From the NCBI GenBank assembly GCA_014380615.1, contig JACMJM010000025.1, positions 1 through 64,000 on the forward strand: a stretch of 64,000 bases of DNA, written 5' to 3'. Under the pieces are notes generated by a model. It was not told where the DNA came from, made no database searches, and saw only the letters and a program-made list of their open reading frames with translations. This stretch comes from Sphingobacteriaceae bacterium. Lineage in GTDB: Bacteria > Bacteroidota > Bacteroidia > Sphingobacteriales > Sphingobacteriaceae. Numbering within the stretch: position 1 is the stretch's first letter; each line of letters begins with the position of its first letter. A program made the position numbers and the translations under genes. Positions 10,334-36,775 of this stretch are shown here, piece by piece.

Positions 10334-11986
10334 TTATGCTGTCTCAATGATAGATTGCCATAATCGATTCGAGGACCTTCCGTCTATCCTATAAAAATAT
10401 TTTTTTATAACTGCATCTAGTTCTATCGAAGTAACGTCGCCTATTTTCGTCTGAGTAAACCACTTCCAAAATTCTTCCCTTTCAGAAAAAAATGGAATTT
10501 CTGGAATGGGTTCTACAAGAGGCATATGATTTGTTTCTGCGAATTGGATAGCAGGAACACCAAATATCAAGGCTTCATAGCAAGAAGCCGAATAACCACA
10601 TACAACTAGGTTAGCTATCGGGAATAATTCAACAGTACGAAAACCTTCAACGACTTCAATCTTGACACCATTACCCACTTTTTGCACCAATTCTCTCACC
10701 AACTGCTTGTTCGTGGCCGGATGCGGACAAAGCAGAATCCTGAGTGGTGCGAATATAGGATTTGAGAATAATGAAATCAGAGAGCTGATATCATTTACAG
10801 AAGGTGCTAACAAAATCACTTTCCCATTCGTTTTTCCCATTTTCTTGCTTACATATTTACCCTTTTCCAAAAAGTCTTGCCGAGATATAACCATGTCATC
10901 GTACTTAAGACATCCTACAATCTTAATACGACCCTCAGGATAAAATTCCTTCGCGATTTGTCTAAATTGGTCTCCTTGAACCAAATAATAATCAGGCAAT
11001 ACACTGAAATTTGGCTGCTGATCCTTTAGGAATTCTGCTTGCCTATGATAAAAGCCCAATTTGTTCTTATTGTTGATTGAATGCTGAATGGAATAAAACA
11101 AAACACTCGGATCTACTTGTTTTGAAAAATGATAAACGGCCCTAATAGGTGATAGCGTCTCTCCATATGTGACAATAGGTTTTTTAATGCTGTTACTCGC
11201 TATCCATTTACTGAAACACAGTCCATACAACAGCGCCCATTGAATTTCACCTAAAAAACTCTTCTCAATTTCCCTTAGTATAATATCCGCACATTGAACA
11301 TCATCAATCTGAAATTTGTTGCGAAAACTTTCATCTTTAGAAATTTTTCTAAAATTGACCCAGACTCTGAACAATGTACTATATACGTCCCATATGTCCA
11401 TCAAAGACGCATATTTGTTTAGAAGCACCCAAGGCCGACCCAGCAAATTCATATTTTCCCTGAATTTTCGCCTATATGTAAAGAACTGCTTTATATTATT
11501 CTTGCCGGGCTGCGCCAAGACAACATATGCAGCTTTTTTACCAAATACTATATCCTCCAAAGGACCCTTAGCAAAATGTCTGTCCAAGGCCTGGCCTTGG
11601 TAGGTATTTATATTATTTGACAGGGAATGAAAATAAACATCGGCATTAATATCTCGAAAAGATTTTCCCAGCCAATATTTACATAGTACAGTTTTAAAAA
11701 TATCATATATAAATAATAGAATGTATGCTAATAAAAATTCATAAAACGACATACTCTTGTTTTTGCTACTAACAGAAACACCATTTAATCGTTTATGGAG
11801 TAATGTGAACCACTCTTTCTCCATCTCCACATCTTTTCCAGCGGGTTTCGTGATATACCATAAATTGAACCCTCGCCATTGAAACGATGTGTCATACTTG
11901 CTTTCGGTTAAAAACTGAGATATCCAGTCAAGATATCTTTCTCTGGTCTTCACCCAATTTGCGTATGTAAATATATTAGGATCCAT
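10334..11986 (-). CDS. Orphan GT-B-like glycosyltransferase (possible CMP-ulosonate transferase)
   Basis: 550 residues, no signal peptide; one hydrophobic segment near 83-105. The C-terminal half looks like a GT-B donor domain: SIQHSINNKN, PDYYLVQGDQF, KIVGCLKYDD, LLCPHPATN and VCGYSASCYEALIFGVPAI. The HP pair and the later S-A-S motif recall bacterial sialyl- and Kdo-transferases that use CMP sugars. It lies in the operon after the aldolase/KdsB-like module, which should make such a donor, so it is a reasonable candidate for the transferase of that sugar. I do not recognise a named family; this role is inference. Confidence 0.55.
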   Translation of the reverse strand: MDPNIFTYANWVKTRERYLDWISQFLTESKYDTSFQWRGFNLWYITKPAGKDVEMEKEWFTLLHKRLNGVSVSSKNKSMSFYEFLLAYILLFIYDIFKTVLCKYWLGKSFRDINADVYFHSLSNNINTYQGQALDRHFAKGPLEDIVFGKKAAYVVLAQPGKNNIKQFFTYRRKFRENMNLLGRPWVLLNKYASLMDIWDVYSTLFRVWVNFRKISKDESFRNKFQIDDVQCADIILREIEKSFLGEIQWALLYGLCFSKWIASNSIKKPIVTYGETLSPIRAVYHFSKQVDPSVLFYSIQHSINNKNKLGFYHRQAEFLKDQQPNFSVLPDYYLVQGDQFRQIAKEFYPEGRIKIVGCLKYDDMVISRQDFLEKGKYVSKKMGKTNGKVILLAPSVNDISSLISLFSNPIFAPLRILLCPHPATNKQLVRELVQKVGNGVKIEVVEGFRTVELFPIANLVVCGYSASCYEALIFGVPAIQFAETNHMPLVEPIPEIPFFSEREEFWKWFTQTKIGDVTSIELDAVIKKYFYRIDGRSSNRLWQSIIETA

Positions 11987-14190: not shown

Positions 14191-14838
14191 CTAAAGATTA
14201 TTTCGCAATACTCTACTCAACTTAGGGTCTTTAAAATTGGAAATCGTTATAGTACCCTCGGGGAAAGAAGTAATTTCATTTAACAATCCAACAAAGACAA
14301 CACCTGTGACTTTCGCGGCATTATAATCAGTCATCGCATCTCCCATAAAAAGAACTTCTTTCGGCTGTAAGTTATACTGATCCATTATTTGAGTTAAGAT
14401 GGTATACTTAGTTTGTGGAGCACCGTAAATAGCTTTAAAAAAAGAAGTAATACCCTTACATCTGGCGATCTCTTGAATTTCTACTTCGGGGGTACCAGTA
14501 CAAATAAATTGTAAATAGTTTGAGTGATGCTGAGCAATAAATTCATGTGCCCCATCAATATACTTGGCATCAATCACTCTCTGCATTGCCAAGGCGGAAA
14601 ACAAATCTCCCATTTCCCTGGCCTCGGATTCCTTTATCACTTTATTGAAGAAGGCTTTTTCATAGTATTTAAACTTTTCAAACCTCGAAATTCCACCATT
14701 CTCATGATGATAATTTACGACCTTTTCTACAACATCGTCTCCATATTGCCGATACATTTCTGCGAAAGCCTCGGTCTTTACACTTACAGAATCGCAAATA
14801 ACACCATCAAAATCATATACAATTGAGCGTATTCTCAT
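14191..14838 (-). CDS. HAD-superfamily phosphatase of the ulosonate module
   Basis: 215 residues with HAD motifs: YDFDGVICDS (nucleophile Asp) at the N-terminus, ICTGTPEVE (motif II Thr), a Lys region in PQTKYTIL, and LFMGDAMTDYNAA (motif III/IV). A helical cap between motifs I and II places it in subclass IA, like phosphoglycolate phosphatase. It overlaps the cyclase gene by 4 bases. Beside a KdsB-like cytidylyltransferase and an aldolase, it could play a KdsC-like role, removing phosphate from a 2-keto-3-deoxy sugar phosphate before CMP activation, though KdsC itself lacks such a cap. Substrate is inferred only. Confidence 0.8.
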   Translation of the reverse strand: MRIRSIVYDFDGVICDSVSVKTEAFAEMYRQYGDDVVEKVVNYHHENGGISRFEKFKYYEKAFFNKVIKESEAREMGDLFSALAMQRVIDAKYIDGAHEFIAQHHSNYLQFICTGTPEVEIQEIARCKGITSFFKAIYGAPQTKYTILTQIMDQYNLQPKEVLFMGDAMTDYNAAKVTGVVFVGLLNEITSFPEGTITISNFKDPKLSRVLRNNL

Positions 14839-15497
14839 AATTTGGCGACTATTGTTACTGGTGCTCCATCAAGCTCACTAACCATAATTGGAAAACAATA
14901 AATTTCAGCAGGTTGCGAATTAAGCAATGAAAGATCCATATCTTCTACAAGCAATATCGGGTTTTCACCAAGAAATGCTTTATGGGCCAAGCGCCCTAAA
15001 GGCCTGTTCTGATATCCGGTGATTGATATAATATCTATTCCCACAGCACGAATTCCTTTACACCTACGCCTTATACCATCAGCCAGATCGGGATGTAGTC
15101 CTGGATTGTTCTGCCAATATCTTTCGTCATTTCGGTAAATACCAAAGCCTGTTTTAATTATGAGAAAGTCTGTCTCTAAAGGAACCGTGCTTAATAACTC
15201 ATCTGACAGCATGATTATATCATCCATATTTGAGGCCAATTCTACTACATGAGGGTAAGCGAATATCCAGAATGATGCATCATATTCATGAGATTTTTTT
15301 CCATTTTCAAAAAAATGATTGGGAAAATCAATATGCGTTCCCGAATGATTACCTAGACTTAACTTTTTCGTATTGGCAGTATCTCCCTTACTTATTTCTC
15401 TGTCGGGCTCTGTCAGGATACCTGTACTACCTCCGTACAAGGGAGTTTTGCCATCCATAAAATAAGATAAATAAACGTACATGGAGCTTTCAGTCAT
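14835..15497 (-). CDS. Cyclase-family metal hydrolase (kynurenine formamidase-like)
   Basis: 220 residues with the signature HSGTHIDFPNHF at 51-62 (His51, His55, Asp57, His61 for metal binding) and AVGIDIISI later, both diagnostic of the cyclase/KynB family. Known members hydrolyse amides or open and close lactones. A catabolic role is unlikely here: the gene overlaps an HAD phosphatase on one side and an SDR on the other within a polysaccharide operon. I infer that it acts on a lactone, lactam or N-formyl group of an activated or precursor sugar acid. I know of no defined function for this family in surface glycans. Confidence 0.82.
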   Translation of the reverse strand: MTESSMYVYLSYFMDGKTPLYGGSTGILTEPDREISKGDTANTKKLSLGNHSGTHIDFPNHFFENGKKSHEYDASFWIFAYPHVVELASNMDDIIMLSDELLSTVPLETDFLIIKTGFGIYRNDERYWQNNPGLHPDLADGIRRRCKGIRAVGIDIISITGYQNRPLGRLAHKAFLGENPILLVEDMDLSLLNSQPAEIYCFPIMVSELDGAPVTIVAKL

Positions 15498-16398
15498 CAG
15501 CTAAATTAATTAGTTTGTTCTTATCACTAGTCGCGAGGGTAGCATACATATCGTAGATGCAATCAAGGATCCCCTGCCCCATATCGTGATATTCTCTGGG
15601 TTGCATTTTAATCGCCACTTTTGGTCTGAACGAATAGGGAGTGATTTGATAGTGCCCGTACATGTTCCCGGGCAAATATTGTATTTTCACCTTATTCTGC
15701 AAAATCTCGCTGATCATCTCTAATACTTCCCTTACTTTCATGGTTTGTTGTCCCGAAATCATGAGATAACAATTCTTATAATTATCGGACAACGCATCTA
15801 CACTCGAACGTGCAGCATCAACAACATTAATATAATCCCGTATCTCATTCCCATCCCCCTGCCTTGTTATCGTACCTTCGATTAAAGCTTGCTTGATACA
15901 ATTTTTTATAAAGTTAAACTCATTAGCTCTCAACCCATACAATGAGCCATATCGCATTACAGTAAACTCCAAGCCATACTCCTTATGATAATTTTCGACA
16001 AATAACTCACACGCCTGCTTTGAACTACGGTAGAATGAGCCGTGGTCACTATAAACGTAAATCGAACTAGAATACATAATCCTTTTTACCGAAAACTCCC
16101 GACAAGCATCAAGGATATACATTGTACCCATGATATTGAAATTGGCAGCTTCGACAGGTTTGTCCCTAGCTTCCTTAATGTCAGCAATTGCAGCAAAATG
16201 ATACACATAATCATTGCCTTGAATAGCCATTCGCACTTGATTCTGATTTAGTATGTCACCTTTAATCATGGTTTGTCCTTGCTGCAAATAAGGCGATCCC
16301 CTTAGATCAAAAATTGTAACATCATACCCCTGCTTAGTCAATTCGTCCGCAACATGACTACCCAAAAAACCAGCACCTCCAAACACAATTGCTTTCAT
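15490..16398 (-). CDS. NAD-dependent epimerase/dehydratase (extended SDR)
   Basis: 302 residues: FGGAGFLG at 5-12 for NAD binding, YHFAAIAD, MYSSSIYVY and FYRSSK (catalytic Tyr and Lys, about 128-132), and RDYINVVD in the substrate domain. Members epimerise, dehydrate or decarboxylate nucleotide sugars. Position between the cyclase and hydroxyacid dehydrogenase genes links it to the aldolase/KdsB module. It may change a hydroxyl configuration of the sugar-acid precursor. Closest named activity is not clear. Confidence 0.8.
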   Translation of the reverse strand: MKAIVFGGAGFLGSHVADELTKQGYDVTIFDLRGSPYLQQGQTMIKGDILNQNQVRMAIQGNDYVYHFAAIADIKEARDKPVEAANFNIMGTMYILDACREFSVKRIMYSSSIYVYSDHGSFYRSSKQACELFVENYHKEYGLEFTVMRYGSLYGLRANEFNFIKNCIKQALIEGTITRQGDGNEIRDYINVVDAARSSVDALSDNYKNCYLMISGQQTMKVREVLEMISEILQNKVKIQYLPGNMYGHYQITPYSFRPKVAIKMQPREYHDMGQGILDCIYDMYATLATSDKNKLINLADD

Positions 16399-16399
16399 A

Positions 16400-17335
16400 C
16401 TAATATTTCATGAGTTCGATGAAGTTTTTTACTGCTTCCATTTCCATATCCGAACGAATTTCTTTTACAAAAGATCCGATATGTGGTGTTAATACTACGT
16501 TTGGAAGTTCTCTAAGCTTGCCTGAATAAGGTTCTTCCTTAAATACATCAAGCCCTGCGCCTGCAAGGTTATTTGCTTTCAAAGCTTCATATAATGCTTC
16601 TTCATCAATTAATTCTCCCCTCGACGTATTTACCAGAATAGCATCTTTTTGTAGTAAAGACAACTTATCTGCTGAAATGTAATTCATCAGTTTTGAATCG
16701 TACTTCAAATGAATAGAAACAATTTCAGCTTGCTTTAATAATTCTTCTATGGCTACATAAGTTACGCCATAAGCCTCAGCAAACTCACGATCTTCATATT
16801 CATCATAGGCAATATAAGACATGTTTAGGCCTCTTGTAAGCTGTACAAGTGTTTTACCGATCTTACCTAAACCAATTACACCCAGTTTCTTTCCTGTAAG
16901 CAGCTTTCCTATATTCTTACTCCATTTACCTGCGGCAATTAAATTATTATGTCTCGTAAGTTTACGTGAAAGATCAAACATAAGAGCCAACGCTAATTCT
17001 GCTACGGAAAGTGACAAATCAGTCTTAGTGGCAACAACTTTGATATTTCTGCGAGTAGTTACATTGAAATCAATATTATCAACTCCCACGCCAACACGCG
17101 AAATGCCGCGTAGATTATCGAGTTGAGCTAGCACTTCCTCGGAATAATTTTCCGTTCCAGCAATAACGCCTTCAACATCCTTTAATAGCTCAATTACCTC
17201 AGCATCATTTAACTTTCTTTTATGCGGATTTAAAGTCACTTCAAATCCTTCACTACGCAACAACTTTAATGGCTCATCTGAAAAGTCACCGAAAGAAGAT
17301 GTAGATATAAAAACATTTCGAGGCATATCAATCAT
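16400..17335 (-). CDS. D-2-hydroxyacid dehydrogenase (phosphoglycerate dehydrogenase-like)
   Basis: 311 residues. The substrate domain has GISRVGVGVDNID (catalytic Arg), the NAD domain has LGVIGLGKIGKTL, and VNTSRGELIDEEAL and LTPHIGSF (catalytic His) complete the active site of the 2-hydroxyacid dehydrogenase family. It interconverts 2-keto and D-2-hydroxy acids with NAD(H). It lacks the extra C-terminal regulatory domain of SerA. Its position, overlapping the KdsB-like gene by 4 bases, argues for a sugar-acid substrate rather than serine synthesis. Confidence 0.85.
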   Translation of the reverse strand: MIDMPRNVFISTSSFGDFSDEPLKLLRSEGFEVTLNPHKRKLNDAEVIELLKDVEGVIAGTENYSEEVLAQLDNLRGISRVGVGVDNIDFNVTTRRNIKVVATKTDLSLSVAELALALMFDLSRKLTRHNNLIAAGKWSKNIGKLLTGKKLGVIGLGKIGKTLVQLTRGLNMSYIAYDEYEDREFAEAYGVTYVAIEELLKQAEIVSIHLKYDSKLMNYISADKLSLLQKDAILVNTSRGELIDEEALYEALKANNLAGAGLDVFKEEPYSGKLRELPNVVLTPHIGSFVKEIRSDMEMEAVKNFIELMKY

Positions 17336-18099
17336 CTGTAAAGACTAATAAATTTATCGGACTCCATTCTTCTGTTAACATTGTCGAGATCAAGCTGGGT
17401 ATCTACCGAATATGTCTCTTCGCTCCGCATTACCATTTTAATCTTCAACCCATTTTCAAGAATACGATTCATATCAACAGACTCAATTATCTCGAGCGGT
17501 GTTTGCTCCATGGCATTATATTTCAATAAAAAATCTCTTTGGAATGGAATAATGCAAACTTGTTTCAACATAGGAACATCAGCAACGCCTTTTTTACGTG
17601 ACGGAATAGGCTCTCTTGAGAAATACATAGCAAAATTATTTTGGTCAACTACCACTTTCACTTCTGCTGGATCCTCATGCTCATCTTTTGTTTTCATACG
17701 GCTCATAAGATTAGTTACAAGAATGGCTTCATCGTCAAGCATAGGCGCGACAGCAGCATCAATCATATCCGGTGTTACCATAGGCTCATCTCCCTGGATC
17801 ATCACAACGATATCAACCTTCTGACCAGTTTGCGTCTCGATCTTCTGCAATGCTTCCGCAGTGCGGTCGGACGCGCGTTCATGCTTATCATGCGTCATGA
17901 TAGCCCTACCACCAATACTTTCGACATACTCCTTTATTTCCATATCGCAGGTAGCTACATACACCTCTGCTAATGTGCCGGAAAGCTTGCATCTTTTATA
18001 CACATGGCCGATCATGGGCATTCCCAATATATCTGCCATAGGTTTGCGTGGTAGCCTGCTTGAAGCAAGACGCGCCGGAATGATACCAATAATATTCAT
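17332..18099 (-). CDS. KdsB-like CMP-ulosonate cytidylyltransferase
   Basis: 255 residues from the ATG at 18099, matching KdsB length; an in-frame ATG at 18219 would add a 40-residue tail overlapping the aldolase gene and unlike the family. Motifs: IIPARLASSRLPRKPM (CTP loop), VMIQGDEP, and FQRDFLLKY, TPLEIIESVDMNRILENG, which are typical of KdsB. The enzyme couples CMP to a 3-deoxy-2-ketoaldonic acid. Being in a capsule operon with an aldolase instead of KdsA/KdsD, it is probably not the housekeeping KdsB but activates a special ulosonic acid. Confidence 0.85.
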   Translation of the reverse strand: MNIIGIIPARLASSRLPRKPMADILGMPMIGHVYKRCKLSGTLAEVYVATCDMEIKEYVESIGGRAIMTHDKHERASDRTAEALQKIETQTGQKVDIVVMIQGDEPMVTPDMIDAAVAPMLDDEAILVTNLMSRMKTKDEHEDPAEVKVVVDQNNFAMYFSREPIPSRKKGVADVPMLKQVCIIPFQRDFLLKYNAMEQTPLEIIESVDMNRILENGLKIKMVMRSEETYSVDTQLDLDNVNRRMESDKFISLYR

Positions 18100-18106
18100 A
18101 GTACTG

Positions 18107-18847
18107 TTATTTGTATTTACGTATATGTTCGATCTGCTGTCTGGCGATGGTACCAAGAAAAAGGGAATCCAAGCTAAAGGCAATGAAATTGTAACCCGCA
18201 TCGATTTTCTCGGCAACAAGCTTATAATCTGGTTGAATCACATGAAAACCTATTTGCTTATTATACTTCTTTGCGATCGTTTCATAACGCATCAATGCAT
18301 CTTTCACATCAGGATCATCATACTGACCGGGTTTTCCCATCGATCCGGAAAGATCGTACGGACCTATAAAGGTCCCATCGATTCCATCCAGGGAAATAAT
18401 ATCATCGAGTTCATTGATGGCATTAACATGTTCGATCTGTGCAATCAATGTAATTGATTTGGCTTTTTCATCTCTGTAATTTTCAAAACCGAAACCATAG
18501 CCTTGCGCACGTGCCAAGCCAACACCGCGTTCCCCAACCGGAGGGTACTTTACGTATTTTACCGCATTCACAGCATCTGTCAGACAATTTACGGATGGAA
18601 TAATCAGGCCATCGGCTCCGGCGTCTAGCACTCTTTTAATGATCCGCCTGTTATTTTCTCCTACCCTTACGAAGGCTTTACAATTCTTTCCTTGAATAGC
18701 TGATATCATTTGTGCCAGTTCAAGATAGTCAATCACGGAATGTTCGATATCTATACACAGCCAGTCAAATCCCGCATCGGCGAGAATCTCGGCAATAGAA
18801 AAATGACCAATGGTAATCCAGGTGCCGAGCGTCATTTTTTTATCCAT
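18107..18847 (-). CDS. HpcH/HpaI-family class II pyruvate aldolase
   Basis: 246 residues, TIM-barrel aldolase. Catalytic and metal residues of HpaI are recognisable: IDIEHSV (His36), FVRVGE (Arg61), AQIEHVNA (Glu139) and IGPYDLSGSMG (Asp165). Such enzymes reversibly join pyruvate to an aldehyde to give a 4-hydroxy-2-keto acid. In a catabolic operon it would degrade aromatic ring-cleavage products, but here it is followed by a KdsB-like CMP transferase 7 bases away, suggesting it builds a 3-deoxy-2-keto sugar acid. That role is inference and is the centre of the proposed new module. Confidence 0.88.
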   Translation of the reverse strand: MDKKMTLGTWITIGHFSIAEILADAGFDWLCIDIEHSVIDYLELAQMISAIQGKNCKAFVRVGENNRRIIKRVLDAGADGLIIPSVNCLTDAVNAVKYVKYPPVGERGVGLARAQGYGFGFENYRDEKAKSITLIAQIEHVNAINELDDIISLDGIDGTFIGPYDLSGSMGKPGQYDDPDVKDALMRYETIAKKYNKQIGFHVIQPDYKLVAEKIDAGYNFIAFSLDSLFLGTIARQQIEHIRKYK

Positions 18848-19654: not shown

Positions 19655-20575
19655 TTATGCTTTAATCTTGTTAAAGAACTGGCCGGGAAAAAATGTAGCA
19701 AAAAACATGAGATAAACCAGGAGCGTTTTAGGAAACTTGTAGGATGCTATCAACTTTCTTGCCTCCGAAGAGGCTCCGCTTTGCCAATAGAATCTTGCTT
19801 CCCCGACTAACAGTCTTGCCCGTAAATGAATGATCGCTTTCGCATACTGCTCTGAAAATCTCGGGTATATGGTATTATAAATATCCAGCATCTGTTCTGT
19901 TTCCAGAACAAAATCTTTTATTTTATTCCAGGTATAACTTGACGCATGTATGCGCCATTTAGCCAGTACTTCGTTTACCATGGCGAGTTTTCCCGAATAA
20001 GCAATTCTTCTAAATAAATCGGCTTCTTCGATAGTACTAAACCGCTCATCGAACCAATACGAAAGCCTATCCAAAGCCGATTTTCTTATTACAACAGTCT
20101 CCAGGGAGAGAAAGTACTGGCTCAATAATTGACTGAAGCAATAGCCGGTATAGTAGGATTTAGATTTGTATAAGCGCCACTGCTTACCTTCGTTATTGAA
20201 AAAAAAGGTATCAGAGTAAACAATATCAACCTTCTCATCGTTGAACAAAGGTATTTGTTTTTCTAATTTTTCCGGAAACCAGATGTCATCACAATCTAAA
20301 AATCCAATGTAATCGCCCTTGCATTTTTCTAATGCATAATTGCGCGCATGACCCAGGGGCACTGTTTGTCCGCCCCGGAAATACTTTATTCTAACGTCAC
20401 TATAGCTTTTAACTATATCAGGGCTTTCATCGGAAGATGCATTATCCCAAAAGATAATTTCCCAGTTAGAATATGTTTGCTTAATAACGCTGTCAATAGC
20501 TTCACGTAGGTATTTGCTACTATTATAGCAGTTCATCACCACGCTTACCAAAGGCTGTTGATTATTAACGCTCAT
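19655..20575 (-). CDS. Family 2 glycosyltransferase
   Basis: 306 residues with a GT-A start VSVVMNCYNSSKYL, then FWDNASSDES and GFLDCDDIWFPEKL (DxD-like metal site), and FSTIEEADLFRRI for the acceptor/base region. It should transfer a sugar to the growing repeat unit. It overlaps the DegT aminotransferase gene upstream by 11 bases. The adjacent CDP-hexose genes make a CDP-sugar donor possible, but GT2 family membership alone does not fix it. Confidence 0.88.
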   Translation of the reverse strand: MSVNNQQPLVSVVMNCYNSSKYLREAIDSVIKQTYSNWEIIFWDNASSDESPDIVKSYSDVRIKYFRGGQTVPLGHARNYALEKCKGDYIGFLDCDDIWFPEKLEKQIPLFNDEKVDIVYSDTFFFNNEGKQWRLYKSKSYYTGYCFSQLLSQYFLSLETVVIRKSALDRLSYWFDERFSTIEEADLFRRIAYSGKLAMVNEVLAKWRIHASSYTWNKIKDFVLETEQMLDIYNTIYPRFSEQYAKAIIHLRARLLVGEARFYWQSGASSEARKLIASYKFPKTLLVYLMFFATFFPGQFFNKIKA

Positions 20576-21704
20576 CTACGGTGCGCTTTAACATTTTGCA
20601 TACGAACTCCACATCTTCAACACTCAGATCCGGATGTAAAGGAAGCGTGAGTAGTTCGGGATATATCAAAGTGGTGATAGGAAATGGCAGTGCAGTATCG
20701 TCTTTGTAAAAAGTAAGCTCATGATTAGGTTTGTAATGTATACCTGTTTGAATACCCTGCTCAGACAATGTATCTTGTAATAGCATCCTTCGTTCAACGT
20801 TGAGCCCTGCTATACGCACAACATAAATGTGAGGTACAACTTCGTAGTAATTTCTTGGCAAGATCTGAATACCAAGATGATTAGACAATAATTTGTCATA
20901 TTGCATGGCTAGACGTTTTCTTTTGTCAGCCATTAAGGGAAACTTCTTTAATTGTTCTATGCCAATAGCTGCCATTACGTTACTCATATGATAACGCCAT
21001 CCCTGCATCTGCACATCGAAATCCCAGCTACGCTTTCCGGAGTATCTTTTCTCAGTATCCTTCTCAACGCCTAGCAAACGCAGGTCCTTAATTCGTTCTG
21101 ATACCACATTATCTGCAGTAACAATACACCCTCCTTCTCCTGAAGTGATGTTCTTTATCCCATCAAAACTAAAACAAACGATGTCTCCAAAACTTCCTAT
21201 ACGTTTTCCTTTATATACTGTGCCAAAGGCATGAGCAGCATCTTCAATAACCCTCAGTCCATTTGTGGTGGCAAACTTATAAACATTATCAAGATCGCCC
21301 ACACCACCCGTATAATGTACAGGTACTATCGCCTTAGTTCTTTTTGTTATTCTCTTTTGCGCATCATCCACATCTATCATTAAGGTCTGTGGGTCTATAT
21401 CACACGGTACTGGTTTGGCGCCGGTAGCACTGATCGCTTGAAAAGAAGCAACATAGGTAAGTGAGGGTATCAATACCTCATCTCCAGCACCTATACCACA
21501 GGCCTGTACAGCAAGTTGAATAGCACCCGTACCATTAACTACACAGGTTGATTCTCTTTTAAAATAATCGGTAAGCAGTCCTTCAAATGTGGAAACTTCA
21601 GCGCCTATGCCAAGATATTCACGGTCAAGTACCCCCATAACAGCGTTCTTTTCTTCTTCTCCAAGACATGACTTTGATAAACGAATCAGTTTCATATTTT
21701 CCAT
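20565..21704 (-). CDS. Sugar aminotransferase, DegT/DnrJ/EryC1 family (CDP-sugar branch)
   Basis: 379 residues. PLP site: VNGTGAIQLA, EDAAHAFG, and CFSFDGIKNITSGEGG with Schiff-base Lys184. RfbH, the usual partner of RfbF and RfbG, has His instead of this Lys and is about 437 residues, so this is a true aminotransferase and not a 3-dehydrase. It would aminate a keto group of a CDP-6-deoxyhexose made by the neighbouring rfbF and rfbG products. Starts at the first of two Met codons; the second is three codons on. Overlaps the RmlC-like gene by 13 bases. Confidence 0.85.
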   Translation of the reverse strand: MENMKLIRLSKSCLGEEEKNAVMGVLDREYLGIGAEVSTFEGLLTDYFKRESTCVVNGTGAIQLAVQACGIGAGDEVLIPSLTYVASFQAISATGAKPVPCDIDPQTLMIDVDDAQKRITKRTKAIVPVHYTGGVGDLDNVYKFATTNGLRVIEDAAHAFGTVYKGKRIGSFGDIVCFSFDGIKNITSGEGGCIVTADNVVSERIKDLRLLGVEKDTEKRYSGKRSWDFDVQMQGWRYHMSNVMAAIGIEQLKKFPLMADKRKRLAMQYDKLLSNHLGIQILPRNYYEVVPHIYVVRIAGLNVERRMLLQDTLSEQGIQTGIHYKPNHELTFYKDDTALPFPITTLIYPELLTLPLHPDLSVEDVEFVCKMLKRTVDER

Positions 21705-22141
21705 GCGTAAGGGATTTGATCTGTGTCGTAAGGTAAAACAATGCTCTCACCTGGTGTATGCGGGAGATCGGCGCAATTTACCAATAAGGCACTCTCATTT
21801 CCAATGCATGAGAATCCGTACCAGATACCTGGCGGAACGGTGATACGTTGATAGTTATCGGGCCTTCCGAGCTCAAATTTTTCAAGGATATCTTCAGACA
21901 GGTGCGGCCTGTTATCAAACAAAACAAACCTTATCCTGCCGACAGGAACACTGATGTTCTGGGTTTGTACACTATGTTGCTTCCAAGCCTTAATAGCCTT
22001 AGGAAATACCTCAGAAAAATAACATTCCCCAAAGGTAGTGAACTCAGGAGAATCGTTACGCAACATGTGCAGCACAGCTCCTCTCTCATCTCGGATTTCC
22101 TTTAAAGGCGAAAAAGTAACACCATTTATCATGGATTCCAT
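21692..22141 (-). CDS. RmlC-like sugar 3,5-epimerase (cupin)
   Basis: 149 residues, cupin fold. AWKQHSVQTQN (His56 matching the catalytic His of RmlC), RFVLFDNR and ITVPPGIWYGFSC resemble dTDP-4-dehydrorhamnose 3,5-epimerase, though the protein is shorter than RmlC (about 180). Flanked by rfbG and the DegT gene, so the substrate is probably CDP-4-keto-6-deoxyglucose or its product instead of a dTDP sugar. It may epimerise only one centre. Confidence 0.75.
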   Translation of the reverse strand: MESMINGVTFSPLKEIRDERGAVLHMLRNDSPEFTTFGECYFSEVFPKAIKAWKQHSVQTQNISVPVGRIRFVLFDNRPHLSEDILEKFELGRPDNYQRITVPPGIWYGFSCIGNESALLVNCADLPHTPGESIVLPYDTDQIPYAWKI

Positions 22142-23244
22142 ATTTTCCCCCTTTGCTGCGCGACCGTTTCATATTCCTTAATCTGGGATAGTGTAAGCTC
22201 ATACATGTCTTTACTATCGATATAATAAGAATAATACCAATTACTAATAAATCTTATGGTTTCCTGGTATTCTAGATTCGATTCCCATCTCAGCAGAAAC
22301 AGCGCTTTATCACAATTCAACTTCAACAAACCAGCTTCATGAAACGGGATATTACCAGTTATCCTGATAGCATCCTCAACTTTATTAAATCCCCAATCCG
22401 CACTAAGATCGGCCAACAATTCTACTACAGTTCTATTCTGCTCTGCCTTAGGTCCAAAATTAAAAGCTTCACCATTTAATGCTTCGTTATTTTCCAAAGA
22501 GGCGCCCAACCACAAGTAACCCGATAAGGGTTCTAGAACATGCTGCCATGGACGAGTTGCTTTGGGGCTTCTTATTTCTACCGGCTTGCCTTTACTCCAA
22601 GACAGAACAGAGTCAACTACAATTCTGTCTTTTGCCCAATCTCCTCCGCCAATTACGTTTCCTGCCCTGCCAATAGCTATTTTTACTGGATGTGCCTTCG
22701 CGAAAAAAGAATGATAATAGCTCTTAATAACTAATTCTGCCGCACCCTTAGAACCACTATATATATCTTTTCCGCCTAAAGCGTCTGTCTCTCGATACCC
22801 CCAAAGCCATTCAACATTATCGTAACACTTATCACTTGTTATCATAATTGCTACACAGGGCTTGGTATATTCACGAAGCGCCTCCAAAACGTTCATTGTC
22901 CCAATTACATTTGTAGCAATAGTATCGCAAGGATCAGAATAGGAAGTAGAGACGATTGCCTGAGCTGCAAGATGAAAAACAAAGTCCGGCGATTCCTTTT
23001 CAACAACCTCTTTAACGAACGATAAATCTGTTACATCACCCTGATAATGCTTAATCTTACTTTTTAGCTGTAGTACATCGAACATAGACGGGTCCGTGGG
23101 TACATCTCTTGAAAGTCCTATGACATCAGCACCAAGATTTAACAACCACACTGTCAGCCAGCTACCTTTAAACCCGGTATTGCCGGTAATTAATACTTTT
23201 TTTCCTTTATATGATTCTGATAACATAGCTTGTTTTATTTCCAT
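22129..23244 (-). CDS. rfbG: CDP-glucose 4,6-dehydratase
   Basis: 371 residues from the ATG at 23244 (10-base overlap with rfbF); ATGs at 23265 and 23226 are alternatives. Features: LITGNTGFKGSWL for NAD, FHLAAQAIV, MITSDKCY and GYRETDALGGKDIYSGSK (catalytic Tyr and Lys). RfbG turns CDP-glucose into CDP-4-keto-6-deoxyglucose, the branch point for CDP-dideoxy and amino-deoxy hexoses. Context with rfbF is decisive for the nucleotide. Confidence 0.92.
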   Translation of the reverse strand: MEIKQAMLSESYKGKKVLITGNTGFKGSWLTVWLLNLGADVIGLSRDVPTDPSMFDVLQLKSKIKHYQGDVTDLSFVKEVVEKESPDFVFHLAAQAIVSTSYSDPCDTIATNVIGTMNVLEALREYTKPCVAIMITSDKCYDNVEWLWGYRETDALGGKDIYSGSKGAAELVIKSYYHSFFAKAHPVKIAIGRAGNVIGGGDWAKDRIVVDSVLSWSKGKPVEIRSPKATRPWQHVLEPLSGYLWLGASLENNEALNGEAFNFGPKAEQNRTVVELLADLSADWGFNKVEDAIRITGNIPFHEAGLLKLNCDKALFLLRWESNLEYQETIRFISNWYYSYYIDSKDMYELTLSQIKEYETVAQQRGKIWNP

Positions 23245-23999
23245 GGGGCATTTCCGCCTACCCAAAGCTCATGCAAGGCGTCTCTGTCACGAACAGTATC
23301 CATACATTGCCAGTAACCTTGGTGCTCATACGCAGCCAGTTGCTGATCGCGAACAAGATTCTCCATTGGGGATTGTTCTAAAATAGTACCATCGTTTTCC
23401 AGATAATCAAATATTTCCTGCTCGAACACAAAAAAACCTCCATTGATCCACCCCTCTCCGGATTGTGGCTTTTCTTTAAAATCCTTCACTTTATGATCAA
23501 TAATAGCCATTCCACCAAATCTGGCCGGCGGCCTTACAGCAGATACAGTTGCAATCTTGCCCATCTTTTTATGAAATGCAAGTAATTCACTTATATTCAC
23601 ATCAGATACCCCATCACCATAGGTGAGCATAAATACACCTTCACCTTTTAATATGTTTTTAAGTCGGAGAAGCCTTCCTCCAGTCAGAGTTTGAGCACCG
23701 GTATCAATAAGACTTACGTTCCAGTCTTCAGCCGTAGGATTATTGAATTCGATTTTTCCGGATTGCAGTTTCACAGTAAAATCGCTCATTCTGGCATGAT
23801 AGTTCAGAAAGTAATCCTTAATAAATTCACCCTTGTACCCCAGGGCAAGTACAAAATCATTAAACCCATACTTTTCGTAGATCTTCATGATATGCCATAA
23901 CATGGGCTTACTGCCTATTTCTACCATTGGTTTTGGACGTAGAGTTGTTTCCTCACTAAGACGCGTACCAAGTCCGCCGCATAGGATTACTGTTTTCAT
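23235..23999 (-). CDS. rfbF: Glucose-1-phosphate cytidylyltransferase
   Basis: 254 residues, usual length for RfbF (about 257). VILCGGLGTRLSEETTLRPKPM forms the nucleotide loop; LTYGDGVSDV and WINGGFFVFEQ are typical of the family. It makes CDP-glucose from CTP and glucose-1-phosphate, the first step of the CDP-hexose branch. A 65-base gap separates it from the upstream GT4 gene. Confidence 0.94.
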   Translation of the reverse strand: MKTVILCGGLGTRLSEETTLRPKPMVEIGSKPMLWHIMKIYEKYGFNDFVLALGYKGEFIKDYFLNYHARMSDFTVKLQSGKIEFNNPTAEDWNVSLIDTGAQTLTGGRLLRLKNILKGEGVFMLTYGDGVSDVNISELLAFHKKMGKIATVSAVRPPARFGGMAIIDHKVKDFKEKPQSGEGWINGGFFVFEQEIFDYLENDGTILEQSPMENLVRDQQLAAYEHQGYWQCMDTVRDRDALHELWVGGNAPWK

Positions 24000-31642: not shown

Positions 31643-32353
31643 TTAGCAAATGGTCCTCACAATAGTAAAAGCTTCTGCATATGCAACACCTACCGCTATA
31701 CCCCATCTTTGTGCCTGTATAAACAAAGCTTCGGGCGAACGGGGATGTGGATAAGGGCGTTTTTCGAATTCATACGCTTCCATACCTTTTACTTTTGCAT
31801 TGAGGCTTTCTTCTGTTACTTGCACAAAAAAGTTTGGCACGAAATGACGGGGATCTGAAGAAGCTCGCCATTCGGTTCCTGAAGGTGTTTCGAAAGTGAT
31901 AATAGTTTTGGAGTGTTCATGCGACATTGGGCGGCATGCAGTAATTACGGCTTCAAACGTACGCTGGTGATCTACGTTCAAGTCACCGCCATGGTGGGTA
32001 AAGATGACTTCCGCCTGAAATGCCTCCTTCTCTTTTTCAATCACCTTTATAATATCTAGCAATGCCACAGAGTCGAACCTATTATCGGGAAAATCATGCA
32101 CAGCCACTGAGTGATAACCAATAGCCGCCTGCGCTTTTTTAATATTGCTCTTATGAATGGTCAATTCATCCTCCCATTGCTGGATATCTCTACGGTCGGA
32201 TCGCGAAGTAATACCCTCTCCTAAAATAACCAAATGCGTTTGTACACCATATTCGTTTATAAGACGATGCATTGATGCACCCAATCCCAAAAGCTCATCA
32301 TCCGGATGAGCTACCACAATCATAATCTTTTTATTTCTTAACGATTCTAACAT
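31643..32353 (-). CDS. PIG-L/LmbE family N-deacetylase
   Basis: 236 residues from the ATG at 32353, overlapping the formyltransferase gene by 23 bases; an ATG at 32389 is an alternative. VVAHPDDELLGLG (Zn site and catalytic Asp) and THHGGDLNVDHQ (third Zn ligand) are the family signatures. PIG-L enzymes remove acetyl groups from N-acetyl sugars. Directly beside a formyltransferase and pseudaminic synthase, it probably frees an amino group for N-formylation. Confidence 0.88.
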   Translation of the reverse strand: MLESLRNKKIMIVVAHPDDELLGLGASMHRLINEYGVQTHLVILGEGITSRSDRRDIQQWEDELTIHKSNIKKAQAAIGYHSVAVHDFPDNRFDSVALLDIIKVIEKEKEAFQAEVIFTHHGGDLNVDHQRTFEAVITACRPMSHEHSKTIITFETPSGTEWRASSDPRHFVPNFFVQVTEESLNAKVKGMEAYEFEKRPYPHPRSPEALFIQAQRWGIAVGVAYAEAFTIVRTIC

Positions 32354-33005
32354 TAGCGAGTATTGAATTGTCTGCAGACAGTTCTGCATTGTAGAATTCG
32401 AACTTAAAGTAGTCAGTCTCTAAAAAGGCATTTGGATACCCTTCACATTGAAGCATACGTATATGATCATAAATTTCTACTGGTAATTTTACACCTTTGA
32501 GGTTCCCTTCTTCGGGTTTTCTTCTATGAAACAAAGTAACCTCGCCCTTTTGAGGAACAGGAATCGGATTTTTAGTTAGGATTTCTATGATCATTTCATG
32601 TATCACACTCGACGATCTGATAAAGATCTCCTCTGCCGTGCCTTTAAGGCCCAAAGTTTTTTTTAAATATATATCCCCAGTATCGAGGCCTTTGCCAACT
32701 TTTATTGCCGATATTTTTGTTTCGTTGCATCCTCTCACTATCAAGTTTTGCAAAGGACTTCCTCCTCTTCCGAATGGAAGATCTGTCATATGAAACACGA
32801 CACAGGTATAGTTTTCATATACAGAAGAAGGAATAATATCCGACCAATGGGGAATGAATATCCAATCGGGCTTGATCGATTGAAGGTGCTCATAGCTAAG
32901 TTCATGCCTTTCAAATACTCTTATCCATTCATGCGTTCCCGAATGTGACAGTGCATTAAATAACTCATGATGCCATGGTTTATTAGTAGCTAATATGCAT
33001 CTCAT
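32331..33005 (-). CDS. Sugar N-formyltransferase
   Basis: 224 residues similar to the N-terminal domain of methionyl-tRNA formyltransferase: CVVFHMTDLPFGRGGSPLQNLI contains the substrate loop, with Asn-His-Asp positions replaced by F-H-x-D type residues, and GLDTGDIYLKK follows. Related enzymes (for example those making Qui3NFo) transfer a formyl group from N10-formyl-tetrahydrofolate to an amino sugar. It overlaps pseI by 4 bases and PIG-L by 23, so it likely modifies an amino group of the nonulosonate or its UDP precursor. The catalytic Asn cannot be placed with certainty. Confidence 0.8.
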   Translation of the reverse strand: MRCILATNKPWHHELFNALSHSGTHEWIRVFERHELSYEHLQSIKPDWIFIPHWSDIIPSSVYENYTCVVFHMTDLPFGRGGSPLQNLIVRGCNETKISAIKVGKGLDTGDIYLKKTLGLKGTAEEIFIRSSSVIHEMIIEILTKNPIPVPQKGEVTLFHRRKPEEGNLKGVKLPVEIYDHIRMLQCEGYPNAFLETDYFKFEFYNAELSADNSILANVRIVKK

Positions 33006-34042
33006 AAAACTTCCCAGCTAAGTGGTGTTCCTGCTTTAATATCCCTTGAAATTCTTTTCCCAAGAACAATATCATAGTATTTAGGAAGCAAGCCATCCCC
33101 AGGCCTGACCACTCGGACATTTTCTGGCGTTAATAGCTCTCCTGCCGCAACATCTTTAGTTATATATATCGAACGCTTAAAGAGCAGATTTTTTTCTTCT
33201 GCCTTCTGCACACCATACTGTATTATTCCTAAAGCTTCGAAAGCACGTTCCGACTCAATAACTAGACCTTTTAACTCCTCAGGCTCAATAGAAAATGTGC
33301 TGTCGACCCCTCCATCGGCTCTACGTAACGTAAAGTGCTTTTCTATTACTCTTGCTCCCAATGCAACAGCTGCGATTGAGGCGCCGATACCCATTGTGTG
33401 ATCCGACAAGCCTACATGGCAATTAAATAATTGCTGCATATGTGGAATTGTTAATAAGTTAGTATTTTTAGCCGTTGCAGGATAAGTACTGGTACATTTA
33501 AGGAGCACTAAATCTGTACAGCCATTGGCACGTAGTGTTCTTACAGCTTCATCAATATCGGAAACATTAGTGGCTCCAGTAGAAATGATAATCGGTTTAC
33601 GTGTTTTTGCAACTTTCTTTAATAAAGGAATATCCGTATTCTCAAAAGAAGCTATCTTATAGGCATTAACCTGTAAGTCTTCAAGAAAATCAACTGCGGT
33701 TTCATCAAAGGGCGTACTAAAGGCTATTAGACCAAGAGACTTTGCATAGTCAAATATTGGCTTATGCCATTCCCATGGCGTAAACGCTTCTTGATATAAG
33801 TCATACAATTCCCTTCCCTTCCACAAAGAACTTTCATCATTTATGGTGAAAGCACCCTTGATTGTCATGGTATCTGGCGTATAAGTTTGCAACTTTATAG
33901 CATGCGCTCCGAATCTAGCCGCCTCTTCAACAATTTTTAATGCTCTATCAAGAGATTGGTTATGATTACCACTCATCTCAGCTATGATAAAAGGCTTGTG
34001 ATGAGTGCCAATAGTAATCGATTCGATCTGAATATCTCTCAT
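33002..34042 (-). CDS. pseI: Pseudaminic acid synthase
   Basis: 346 residues. N-terminal TIM barrel (FIIAEMSGNHNQSL, AIKLQTYTPDTMT, YKIASFEN, GLSDHTMG, VIEKHFTL) and a C-terminal SAF/antifreeze-like domain (AAGELLTPENVRVVRPGDGL) are those of PseI. It condenses phosphoenolpyruvate with 2,4-diacetamido-2,4,6-trideoxy-L-altrose. The QTYTPDTMT motif separates PseI from NeuB and LegI. Overlaps pseGH by 4 bases. Confidence 0.93.
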   Translation of the reverse strand: MRDIQIESITIGTHHKPFIIAEMSGNHNQSLDRALKIVEEAARFGAHAIKLQTYTPDTMTIKGAFTINDESSLWKGRELYDLYQEAFTPWEWHKPIFDYAKSLGLIAFSTPFDETAVDFLEDLQVNAYKIASFENTDIPLLKKVAKTRKPIIISTGATNVSDIDEAVRTLRANGCTDLVLLKCTSTYPATAKNTNLLTIPHMQQLFNCHVGLSDHTMGIGASIAAVALGARVIEKHFTLRRADGGVDSTFSIEPEELKGLVIESERAFEALGIIQYGVQKAEEKNLLFKRSIYITKDVAAGELLTPENVRVVRPGDGLLPKYYDIVLGKRISRDIKAGTPLSWEVL

Positions 34043-35451
34043 TGTTGTCGCTTATAATAGGTATTAAGTAAAAGCTCGTCTTTCATAATCACATCTCCCT
34101 TTGTAAAGCCGAAGTTTTCGAATATCTTGTTAGACCTCTCATTTTCATTTTTTACAACTGCCTTGATTCCATCTTTTACAAACCCGTCTATCGTCATTTC
34201 AATAATTTTGTTCCCGAGTCCCATCCCTCTGTAATCCGAGTCTATAGAATAATCCATTTCCCACCCGGAATCAATTTGATCATATCTGATTTGGCCCACA
34301 GGTATCCCGAAGAATTCCAAAATCGATATTTTGGTTTGCTTAGAATTGAGCTTAGCATAAAACCATTTCTGATGTCCATCAAGGGTTATCGTCTCCTGTC
34401 GGATAGAACTGTCCCTTACTGCTTTATCATTTGCCCAATTGAATAGTAATTTACAGTCGCGTACACTCGCCTCTCTTATATTTAATCCTAAATCATAAAA
34501 CTTTAGATTAATTCTTTTAGGCGAATTTCCGTCGATTATAGTTTTTCTATCTTGATTTATCTCTAATGCTAGCGCTTTAGTAATCGCATCTTTAATCGCA
34601 CTATACTGAAAACTTGTTGTTATATCTATACCTTCCAACTTGCTAAAACCGGCAAAAAGCTTTTCTTGGTTATTTGTATATGTACCTGAAATAATTATTG
34701 GACTGATAGCAACAGCTTCGTACAAAATACCGCTTGCTGGCACAATAGCCACATCAGCGTCCATCAGAAGCTTCACTATCTGATTCTCGTTAACATCATG
34801 ATGCAGATTAACCCTTTTGTCTGTAACATATGCTGAAAGTGTTTCCTTATACAAATATGATGCGCCAATCACTATATCTATTTTATTTAATTGCTCGATT
34901 TCCACCGCTGCCTGAAGCGACTCGAGAGTACAATTATTAAAATCTGATCCACCAAAACAAATAAATAGAGTTTCAATATTTGAAGTTCTTTTTTTGGGAT
35001 TCACTTTCAGAAATTCAGGGCGCAATAAAGCAAAATCTGTTCCCAGAGCGAATTTCGTATAGGGTTGTGCTATATAATGCTCAATGTCAGGTGCATGATT
35101 AATTATAAGGTCGGCATCAAAATCCCTGTCACCCAGGTCATCAATACAAACCAGCTTTGCTCCGCGTTGACGAATTGTTCTCTGAACCTCAATATCGAAT
35201 GTATAATTGTCCACAACTACAATTTGGCCAAATTGAAGGTTCATTATCCATTCTGCTTCATTATGGATTGCTGTACATTCGAAACCAAATCGATTTAAAT
35301 CATTTTTAAAAGCTTCCGGCGCTTCTCTGATAAGAAAGTGTATTGAAAAACATTGGTCCAACATCCTTGCTAACGCAAGGCTTCTTATCAAGTGGCCTAA
35401 GCCGATGGCAGCATTTCCATCTACACGAAAAAAAACCTGAACCTTTCTCAC
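34039..35451 (-). CDS. pseG: Fused PseG nucleotidase and PseH acetyltransferase
   Basis: 470 residues in two domains. Residues 1 to about 315 match PseG, the UDP-sugar hydrolase: RVDGNAAIGLGHLIRS, CIDDLGDRDFDADLIINHAP and a GT-B-like C-half with ICFGGSD. Residues about 325-465 are a GNAT domain (NIREASVRDCKLLFNWAND, MDYSIDSDYRGMGLGNKI, KNENERSNKIFENFGF), fitting PseH. The fusion would acetylate the 4-amino group and release UDP in one polypeptide. No stop or linker break is seen. Confidence 0.9.
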   Translation of the reverse strand: MRKVQVFFRVDGNAAIGLGHLIRSLALARMLDQCFSIHFLIREAPEAFKNDLNRFGFECTAIHNEAEWIMNLQFGQIVVVDNYTFDIEVQRTIRQRGAKLVCIDDLGDRDFDADLIINHAPDIEHYIAQPYTKFALGTDFALLRPEFLKVNPKKRTSNIETLFICFGGSDFNNCTLESLQAAVEIEQLNKIDIVIGASYLYKETLSAYVTDKRVNLHHDVNENQIVKLLMDADVAIVPASGILYEAVAISPIIISGTYTNNQEKLFAGFSKLEGIDITTSFQYSAIKDAITKALALEINQDRKTIIDGNSPKRINLKFYDLGLNIREASVRDCKLLFNWANDKAVRDSSIRQETITLDGHQKWFYAKLNSKQTKISILEFFGIPVGQIRYDQIDSGWEMDYSIDSDYRGMGLGNKIIEMTIDGFVKDGIKAVVKNENERSNKIFENFGFTKGDVIMKDELLLNTYYKRQQ

Positions 35452-35458
35452 TCTTTAA

Positions 35459-36775
35459 TCAGATATATTTCCTGAATACAGGCTTTATAGGCTCGCCAAT
35501 TAAAAAGTTTGCATAGGAAGTTTCAAGCGCTTTTTTATAAATCTCGCATGACTTTTCGAATGCTGACAAGAAAAAAAGTATTTCTTCATGATTGTGAGTA
35601 TATGCTGGTACAAAAGCGCCTTGAAAAAGAACCCCATTTTTTATCATCTCCTGTAAAAAAAGTGTCCTGTATCCCGCATTGATTTTACCATCTGCATCTT
35701 TAAATATAAAAGCTAGAAACCATGGTGTATCCGAAACTTGTATTTGTTGTTGTAAGGTATTTTTAATGAGTATCTCTTTGCAACCATTTATAATTTCCGT
35801 ACCCGTTGCGTGGTTCTTCTCAATAACATTATTTTTCTTGTAAAAATCTATAGTGGCCAATCCTGCAGCAATAGCGTGTGTCTCCCCGCCATGTGTGGTG
35901 GATATCAAAAATAGTTTTTCTTTCCCTGGCTTATCTATGCCACCCATCTCCATAACCTCTCTAATCCCTGTTAGGGCACAAAAAGAAAAACCATTAGCCA
36001 CCGATTTACCCCATGTAGCCATGTCTGGAATAAGATCCAGCTTTGTCAATGAACCCGGAAAGGCTGTTTTAAAACCAGTAATCATTTCATCAAAAATAAA
36101 TAACGCTCCATTTTTATGAGTGATTTCAATAGCTTCTTTTAGAAAGGCGTGAGTATTACCATCAAAATTTCTCTCTGGCTCTGTTATGACACAAGCAATC
36201 TGATCAGGATATCTTTCAAATAATTCAACTAATGATGTTAAATCGTAAGATTTGAATGTAACTGACAAATTGCTTATTTCTTCTGGAACGCCAAAGTCGC
36301 ATTGGGTTTTGCCTATAAACCAATCATCATAGGAATAGAAGGGATGGTCTGCAGGAAACGCAATCAACTTACGTCCCGTGTAAGCTCTTGCCAGCTTTAC
36401 TGCTGCCGTGGTAACAATAGATCCGTTCTTTGCAAACTTGATCATGTGATGCATAGGAACCAGAGACAGGAATTCATTAGCCATCTCTTCTTCAATAACT
36501 GAAGGGCGTTGAAAATTAACACCTTTTTCTAGTTCTAACCGCACTCTTTCTAGTACAGGCTCGAAAGCGTGTCCTAATGTTACAGAAGTTAATCCCATTG
36601 AGCAATCGAGGAATTTGTTACCATCCACATCCCATACCCACGCACCTTTACCATATGATATGGCAGCAGGAGCCAGCGACGGGAATTGGTCATCACCCTT
36701 TGAGTAAGTATGAGCTCCACCCGGAATCAGCTGGTGTATATTTTTTTTATATTCGTTAGATCGGTCAAATTTCAT
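35459..36775 (-). CDS. Class III aminotransferase, GSA-aminomutase-like
   Basis: 438 residues. PLP-fold type I: DVDGNKFLDCSMGLTSVTLGH near 49-69, FIFDEMITGF (Asp229) and TWGKSVANG with Schiff-base Lys257. It resembles glutamate-1-semialdehyde aminomutase but lies between the SpsF-like and pseGH genes, where such genes recur in nonulosonate loci. It is not part of the classical pseudaminic pathway, so it may introduce an extra amino group or act on a modified precursor. Overlaps the SpsF gene by 4 bases. Confidence 0.83.
   Translation of the reverse strand: MKFDRSNEYKKNIHQLIPGGAHTYSKGDDQFPSLAPAAISYGKGAWVWDVDGNKFLDCSMGLTSVTLGHAFEPVLERVRLELEKGVNFQRPSVIEEEMANEFLSLVPMHHMIKFAKNGSIVTTAAVKLARAYTGRKLIAFPADHPFYSYDDWFIGKTQCDFGVPEEISNLSVTFKSYDLTSLVELFERYPDQIACVITEPERNFDGNTHAFLKEAIEITHKNGALFIFDEMITGFKTAFPGSLTKLDLIPDMATWGKSVANGFSFCALTGIREVMEMGGIDKPGKEKLFLISTTHGGETHAIAAGLATIDFYKKNNVIEKNHATGTEIINGCKEILIKNTLQQQIQVSDTPWFLAFIFKDADGKINAGYRTLFLQEMIKNGVLFQGAFVPAYTHNHEEILFFLSAFEKSCEIYKKALETSYANFLIGEPIKPVFRKYI

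Follow-up and report, generated by a model that had tools for sequence, protein, structure and literature searches.

The 64,000-nucleotide stretch of a Sphingobacteriaceae contig analyzed here (the window) carries, at positions 14191-18847 of the minus strand, a compact run of six genes that appears to encode a pathway to a sugar acid activated with cytidine monophosphate (CMP). In transcription order, these encode an aldolase, a KdsB-like CMP-transferase, a D-2-hydroxyacid dehydrogenase (HADH), an extended short-chain dehydrogenase/reductase (SDR), a cyclase-family metal hydrolase (CYC) and a haloacid dehalogenase-type (HAD) phosphatase, all six scoring above the curated Pfam cut-offs:

18107..18847, minus strand: HpcH/HpaI-family aldolase, 246 aa (PF03328, 124 bits)
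17332..18099, minus strand: KdsB-like CMP-transferase, 255 aa from ATG 18099 (PF02348, CTP_transf_3, 157 bits; TIGR00466, 155.4 bits)
16400..17335, minus strand: HADH, 311 aa (PF02826, 2-Hacid_dh_C, 179 bits)
15490..16398, minus strand: extended SDR, 302 aa (PF01370, Epimerase, 137 bits), proposed sugar(-phosphate) C1 dehydrogenase
14835..15497, minus strand: CYC, a Cyclase/kynurenine-formamidase-fold metal hydrolase, 220 aa (PF04199, 57 bits), proposed lactonase
14191..14838, minus strand: HAD-family phosphatase, 215 aa (PF13419, HAD_2, 60 bits), proposed sugar-acid phosphatase

The genes run head to tail with successive gaps of +7, -4, +1, -8 and -4 bp, and ATG 18099, not an upstream TTG, is the most likely start of the KdsB-like gene. 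Coordinates, Pfam matches and spacing thus agree with the initial annotation, which had described six closely packed genes of these families. The catalytic residues it had pointed out are present as well: His36, Arg61, Glu139 and Asp165 of the aldolase are invariant across 16 aligned aldolases, and the KdsB-like enzyme retains the cytidine triphosphate (CTP) loop (P8, R10, S13, R15, K19). Q102-G-D104-E-P and D237 of the latter enzyme are present too. Among the remaining enzymes, the catalytic R239, E268 and H285 of HADH are kept in 43/43 sequences, and CYC preserves an HxGTHxDxPxH metal motif and His/Glu ligands (H51/H55/D57/H61/H172/E185), all six invariant in 32 sequences. S111/Y123/K127 of the SDR are invariant, and the HAD protein has D9/D11/K144/D167/D171 intact, its catalytic Asp and Lys being invariant. 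Solved homologues of the SDR and HADH are too numerous and too generic for assigning a substrate.

Genomic neighborhood analysis reveals that the set recurs widely. Two anchors were used, a cyclase alignment scanned against GTDB species genomes, which gave 59 loci, and the module aldolase, searched in 396 Bacteroidota, 200 Campylobacterota and 399 Pseudomonadota genomes. Many cyclase-anchored loci carry the set in one of two arrangements (aldolase-KdsB-HADH-SDR-CYC-HAD or NeuA-aldolase-SDR-CYC-HAD-HADH), and strong matches to the aldolase anchor again sit in such clusters. Among 41 aldolase loci, a KdsB- or NeuA-like CMP-transferase is present in 38, HADH in 38 and the complete set of six in 18; within the span examined, about 10 kb on each side of the anchor and less at contig ends, KdsA occurs in none (0/41) and a NeuB-family gene is absent from 36. 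Recurrence in glycan loci without kdsA, which the initial annotation had named as the check on its proposal, is therefore what these 41 loci display. Its statement that the module holds no phosphoenolpyruvate (PEP)-dependent synthase is likewise in accordance with them, the window's own NeuB-family gene lying ∼14 kb away in a pseudaminic acid (pse) set. Chance assembly of the six genes is ruled out by their joint recurrence, with changed order, in dozens of divergent loci.

Module loci were found in Bacteroidota, Campylobacterota, Pseudomonadota, Bdellovibrionota and Cloacimonadota. The module is nevertheless uncommon, with 11 of the 396 Bacteroidota genomes (the window's own counted) having a strong aldolase match in such a cluster, and searches of plasmid and phage collections with the cyclase and the aldolase yielded distant relatives only. 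A contig labelled Thermoplasmatales archaeon, from a metagenome-assembled genome (MAG), carries the module SDR, cyclase and HAD genes at its cut end (L028); the module may reach archaea, a binning error being possible.

A single clade (100/99) unites the 26 module KdsBs, which come from several phyla, and separates them from 18 housekeeping or reference KdsBs, many of which belong to the same genomes. R10, R15, K19, Q102, D104 and D237 are common to at least 95% of the 44 KdsB sequences. H181, Y185, E210 and Q211 (E. coli numbering), which presumably contact 3-deoxy-D-manno-oct-2-ulosonic acid (Kdo), are invariant in the housekeeping KdsBs, whereas at least 88% of the module KdsBs have Q, I, D and M instead; the window protein has Q180, I184 and D209-M210 at the positions of the Kdo-type H, Y and E-Q. 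The C-terminal domain of KdsB binds Kdo (PMC3149649), and the roles of the CTP- and metal-holding residues and of the sugar-holding Gln are taken from PMC3149649 and PMC2901514. With its CTP loop, metal Asp pair and sugar-holding Gln, the module protein is a predicted member of the KdsB/NeuA CMP-ulosonate synthetase superfamily. Its separate clade, its switched motifs and a TIGR00466 score that barely reaches the cut-off (155.4 versus 155.2 bits) indicate that it is not of the Kdo type.

The host assembly encodes three CTP_transf_3 proteins: the module protein, the pse-locus protein and a protein on contig C26. The last is a clear housekeeping KdsB (TIGR00466, 234 bits against a cut-off of 155, 79 bits over), and KdsA is equally clear on contig C44 (TIGR01362, 385 bits; cut-off 314). 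By these matches, the host genome owns Kdo pathway genes and the module enzyme appears to be a second, diverged KdsB; the case that the initial annotation had set against its own proposal, in which the module gene would be the genome's only KdsB, does not hold. A role as the genome's Kdo enzyme is ruled out by the C26 housekeeping kdsB, the separate clade and the switched sugar-domain motifs.

A related alternative confines the module to modifying or re-activating a conventional ulosonic acid, Kdo or another, with a KdsA or NeuB-type enzyme encoded elsewhere supplying the skeleton. The host's KdsA and the five of 41 loci with a NeuB-family gene inside them would fit such an arrangement. It is nonetheless unlikely, since the loci are free of kdsA, the sugar-domain motifs are switched, a separate Kdo-type KdsB exists in most of these genomes, and at E <= 1e-20 no KdsB appears in three genomes whose module is of the NeuA type. 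Where the module is of the KdsB type, the genome mostly has a second KdsB. In one complete-looking genome (G759; L173, L194), the module copy is the only KdsB at E <= 1e-20, and this organism may lack Kdo or use the module KdsB for it.

The module aldolases represent a distinct subfamily. They carry the signature E139-H140, GPY164D165 and G200xH202, where YfaU and HpaI instead have E-S, GPAD and GxL. In the aldolase-anchored Bacteroidota set, linkage to a CMP-transferase is found at 10/10 loci with the full signature versus 7/18 without it, and 25 transferase-linked aldolases form one clade in the tree (95/84). The aldolases of KdsB-type and NeuA-type modules in Campylobacterota are sisters (L156, L158 and L160 with L159 and L161), which means that one transferase type gave way to the other and the aldolase was retained. 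CTP-transferase-family and HAD genes likewise lie beside more divergent aldolases (L126-L130, L133). Signature, clade and linkage together rule out a catabolic aldolase present by accident. In the L025 region of a Spirosoma-labelled MAG, the aldolase copies (G656:C4:147837-148556 and 153621-154361) contain stops or a frame break, as a result of either decay or sequencing error.

On this enzyme rests the route favored by the initial annotation, in which pyruvate and an aldehyde would be joined into a 2-keto-3-deoxy acid. In such a route, the SDR, cyclase and HADH would prepare the aldehyde or finish the far end. That the aldolase directly adjoins the transferase in many loci, that it belongs to a distinct subfamily and that synthesis or cleavage of such acids is established for HpcH/HpaI aldolases, which include solved relatives, all argue for this route, whereas the catabolic function of most characterized family members and the aldolase-less relatives that retain the rest of the set argue against it. 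We hold it as a real possibility, somewhat short of even odds.

Interchange among the partner genes suggests what the individual enzymes do. Matches were called by score thresholds in 46 loci, and because related loci are not independent, the following p-values are optimistic: KdsB and NeuA-like transferases occur in 28 and 15 loci, respectively, and never together (p = 1.6e-9); the SDR and a GFO/IDH oxidoreductase occur in 30 and 14, again never together (p = 5e-10); a 6-phosphogluconolactonase is found in 4/18 loci lacking CYC versus 0/28 with it (p = 0.019); and an inositol monophosphatase (IMPase)-type phosphatase is found in 4/16 loci lacking HAD versus 0/30 with it (p = 0.011). The four 6-phosphogluconolactonase loci (L110, L111, L173, L178) score above the TIGR01198 cut-off. 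HADH is the most constant partner of the CMP-transferase, present in nearly all loci, including aldolase-less ones. Because the members of each pair (KdsB/NeuA-like, SDR/GFO-IDH, cyclase/6-phosphogluconolactonase, HAD/IMPase) replace each other, the pattern suggests roles as CMP-ulosonate synthetase, sugar dehydrogenase, lactonase and phosphatase, arranged around a near-constant HADH.

Further partners bear on the substrate. NanQ-like genes (sialate-anomerase family) are present in seven loci, and MptE-like proteins with a GNGPSL motif, a feature of GT42-type sialyltransferases, in twelve. The changed sugar-domain motifs would also be compatible with a KdsB-like enzyme repurposed for a non-ulosonic substrate, such as another hydroxy acid. 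Such repurposing is distinctly improbable, given that the interchange with NeuA-like enzymes, the retained Gln102 and the NanQ-like and MptE-like partners all point to ulosonic acids.

A sister class of loci (L018, L026, L031, L032, L035, L042, L044, L112, L113, L119) has the same HADH, cyclase and CMP-transferase, joined by a GFO/IDH oxidoreductase and a GmhA-like isomerase. Most also have an AroB-related cyclising phospholyase (TIGR04425 in L018), and some have a NanQ-like gene without an aldolase; the product of this class may be a related acid or else a cyclitol. Ten loci (L019, L025, L063, L109, L112, L115, L116, L160, L173, L178) have FkbM-type methyltransferase-like genes in or beside the module, so that some strains may O-methylate the product.

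The cyclase/6-phosphogluconolactonase interchange suggests a sequence of oxidation, lactone and aldonate, with the 2-keto group possibly introduced by the dehydrogenase. In a fully oxidative route of this kind, the SDR or GFO/IDH enzyme, the lactonase and HADH would produce the 2-keto acid from an aldose phosphate, and the aldolase would be a lineage-specific addition that extends or rearranges the acid. Such a route is consistent with the persistence of HADH at aldolase-less loci and with the replacement of the cyclase by 6-phosphogluconolactonase. It is also consistent with genomes that lack a related aldolase altogether: those of L032, L033, L044 and L063 contain none at E <= 1e-15, although some are MAGs and possibly incomplete. 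L032 and L035 combine an isomerase, GFO/IDH, cyclase, HADH, IMPase, NanQ-like and NeuA-like enzymes with no aldolase. At L109 (4682-6454, minus strand), a degenerate CTP-transferase-like domain with no evident CTP loop is fused to HADH, beside a normal module KdsB. What this route leaves unexplained is why so many loci place the aldolase immediately next to the transferase and why it is kept across phyla. We consider it credible while stopping short of favoring it.

The six genes together probably supply a surface glycan with a CMP-activated 2-ulosonic acid and do so without a PEP-dependent synthase, a reading to which we give a probability of roughly 65%. For the pathway itself, we infer substrates, order, direction and product as follows. 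The SDR would oxidize C1 of a phosphorylated aldose to a lactone, the cyclase-family enzyme would open the lactone to an aldonate, and HADH would interconvert the C2 hydroxyl and keto groups. With pyruvate, or a keto acid resembling it, the aldolase would form or exchange a carbon-carbon bond; the HAD enzyme would take off the phosphate, and the KdsB-like enzyme would join the free 2-keto acid to CMP for use by a glycosyltransferase. The source of the 2-keto group would be either the aldolase or the dehydrogenase, and the aldolase may correspondingly add pyruvate to an aldehyde to make the keto acid or extend or rearrange an oxidized intermediate.

Several observations weigh against this reading. 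Six loci without an aldolase (L018, L032, L033, L035, L042, L063) nevertheless have the dehydrogenase and the cyclase, mostly with a CMP-transferase. The aldolase, the cyclase or HAD is each missing somewhere, and only HADH and the CMP-transferase are near constant. Since aldolase and dehydrogenase could each yield a 2-keto acid, the presence of both is not fully explained. The non-independence of the loci weakens the exclusion statistics. Finally, a NeuB-family gene occurs in five loci and, ∼14 kb off, in the window, where it is less telling because it is part of the pse set. The core idea of the initial annotation, that a keto-acid sugar is formed with no PEP-dependent synthase and activated with CMP, is well supported by these sequence comparisons. 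Its further suggestion that the aldolase may build the keto acid has evidence on both sides: adjacency to the transferase and the distinct subfamily speak for it, while the aldolase-less relatives and a dehydrogenase that could oxidize instead speak against it. More tentatively, the loci may document a widespread further ulosonic route of C1 oxidation, lactone opening, C2 oxidation and CMP activation, to which most lineages would have added the aldolase to reach longer or branched acids of a kind that no glycan has so far revealed.

Comparison with known systems places the module next to, but not within, the established pathways. To our knowledge, the keto-acid skeleton comes from a PEP-dependent synthase in the characterized CMP-Kdo and CMP-nonulosonate routes. 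Like the CMP-Kdo pathway (KdsD/KdsA/KdsC/KdsB), the module has a HAD phosphatase and relies on a KdsB-family CMP-transferase for its last step. Unlike that pathway, it lacks KdsA, its KdsB clade is separate, its HAD protein is not KdsC (TIGR01670, 22 bits against a cut-off of 107), and it has extra dehydrogenases, a cyclase and an aldolase. With the NeuB/NeuA, PseI/PseF and LegI/LegF pathways it shares CMP activation of a keto-acid sugar, the NeuA-like enzyme that replaces KdsB in many modules and, in some, NanQ-like and MptE-like partners; it differs in that 36 of the 41 loci have no NeuB-family synthase and that the module lacks the UDP-sugar dehydratase/aminotransferase set. HpaI, GarL and YfaU have the fold family and catalytic residues of the module aldolases, which stand apart by their own clade, their E-H / GPYD / GxH signature and their position beside a CMP-transferase in glycan loci. 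The Kdo8N route, in which KdnA/KdnB act before KdsB, similarly activates a modified ulosonic acid, but it begins from KdsA-made Kdo and involves no aldolase or lactonase. The module would best be called a variant of CMP-ulosonate biosynthesis, with the same final step and without the defining synthase.

A search of open-access full texts, which cover few subscription papers, found no described pathway for this gene set. For the capsule of Campylobacter coli 76339, BN865_07090-07150 (in sequence: aldolase, phosphoglycerate-dehydrogenase-like, epimerase, cyclase, conserved hypothetical, HAD, sialyltransferase-like) appear in a table that documents inter-clade gene flow, with no pathway proposed (PMC3928612); the order from aldolase to HAD equals that of L159 and L161. 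A novel C. jejuni capsule locus with an aldolase gene has also been mentioned (PMC9858101), and a paper on nucleotidyl-phosphonates (PMC6697681) was set aside as concerning other cytidylyltransferase families. The earlier claim that no glycan pathway with this set had been described therefore holds for pathways in the open-access literature, with the qualification that the genes themselves had already been printed uninterpreted.

Around the module, the window encodes a polysaccharide export protein, a NusG-like protein, an ABC-type transporter, a GT4-type initiating transferase, the pse locus and a CDP-hexose set. By these neighbors, the module lies in a predicted surface-polysaccharide locus, which upholds the term capsule operon used earlier to that extent; capsule specifically, versus another surface glycan, goes beyond what the neighbors indicate. 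The pse locus (31643-40598, minus strand) comprises PseB, PseC, PseG/PseH, PseI and a CMP-transferase scoring below the PseF model. It also holds a glutamate-semialdehyde-aminomutase-like aminotransferase and formyltransferase-like and deacetylase-like genes, and perhaps makes an N-formylated pseudaminic acid variant. The CDP-hexose set (20565-23999, minus strand) consists of glucose-1-phosphate cytidylyltransferase-like and CDP-glucose 4,6-dehydratase-like proteins, a cupin and a DegT aminotransferase; in L022, L023, L027, L042 and L063, homologues occur alongside the module or a relative of it. At 10334-11986 (minus strand), a 550-aa orphan protein resembles a GT-B-type transferase by eye only and has no Pfam or NCBIfam match. 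It could use the CMP-sugar; as a conserved partner transferase it was rejected, since neither the module loci nor the remaining genomes of a 248-genome phylum sample contain a homologue.

If correct, the proposed pathway would be a new entry route to ulosonic acids that reaches the same activation step without a PEP-dependent synthase. It predicts that many environmental bacteria, and some Campylobacter, carry an unknown acidic sugar in their surface glycans, and it offers functional hypotheses for glycan-locus proteins annotated just as ‘cyclase family protein’ or ‘2-hydroxyacid dehydrogenase.’ The aldolase signature (E-H / GPYD / GxH) and the KdsB residues Q180, I184 and D209-M210 would serve as search signatures for further cases.

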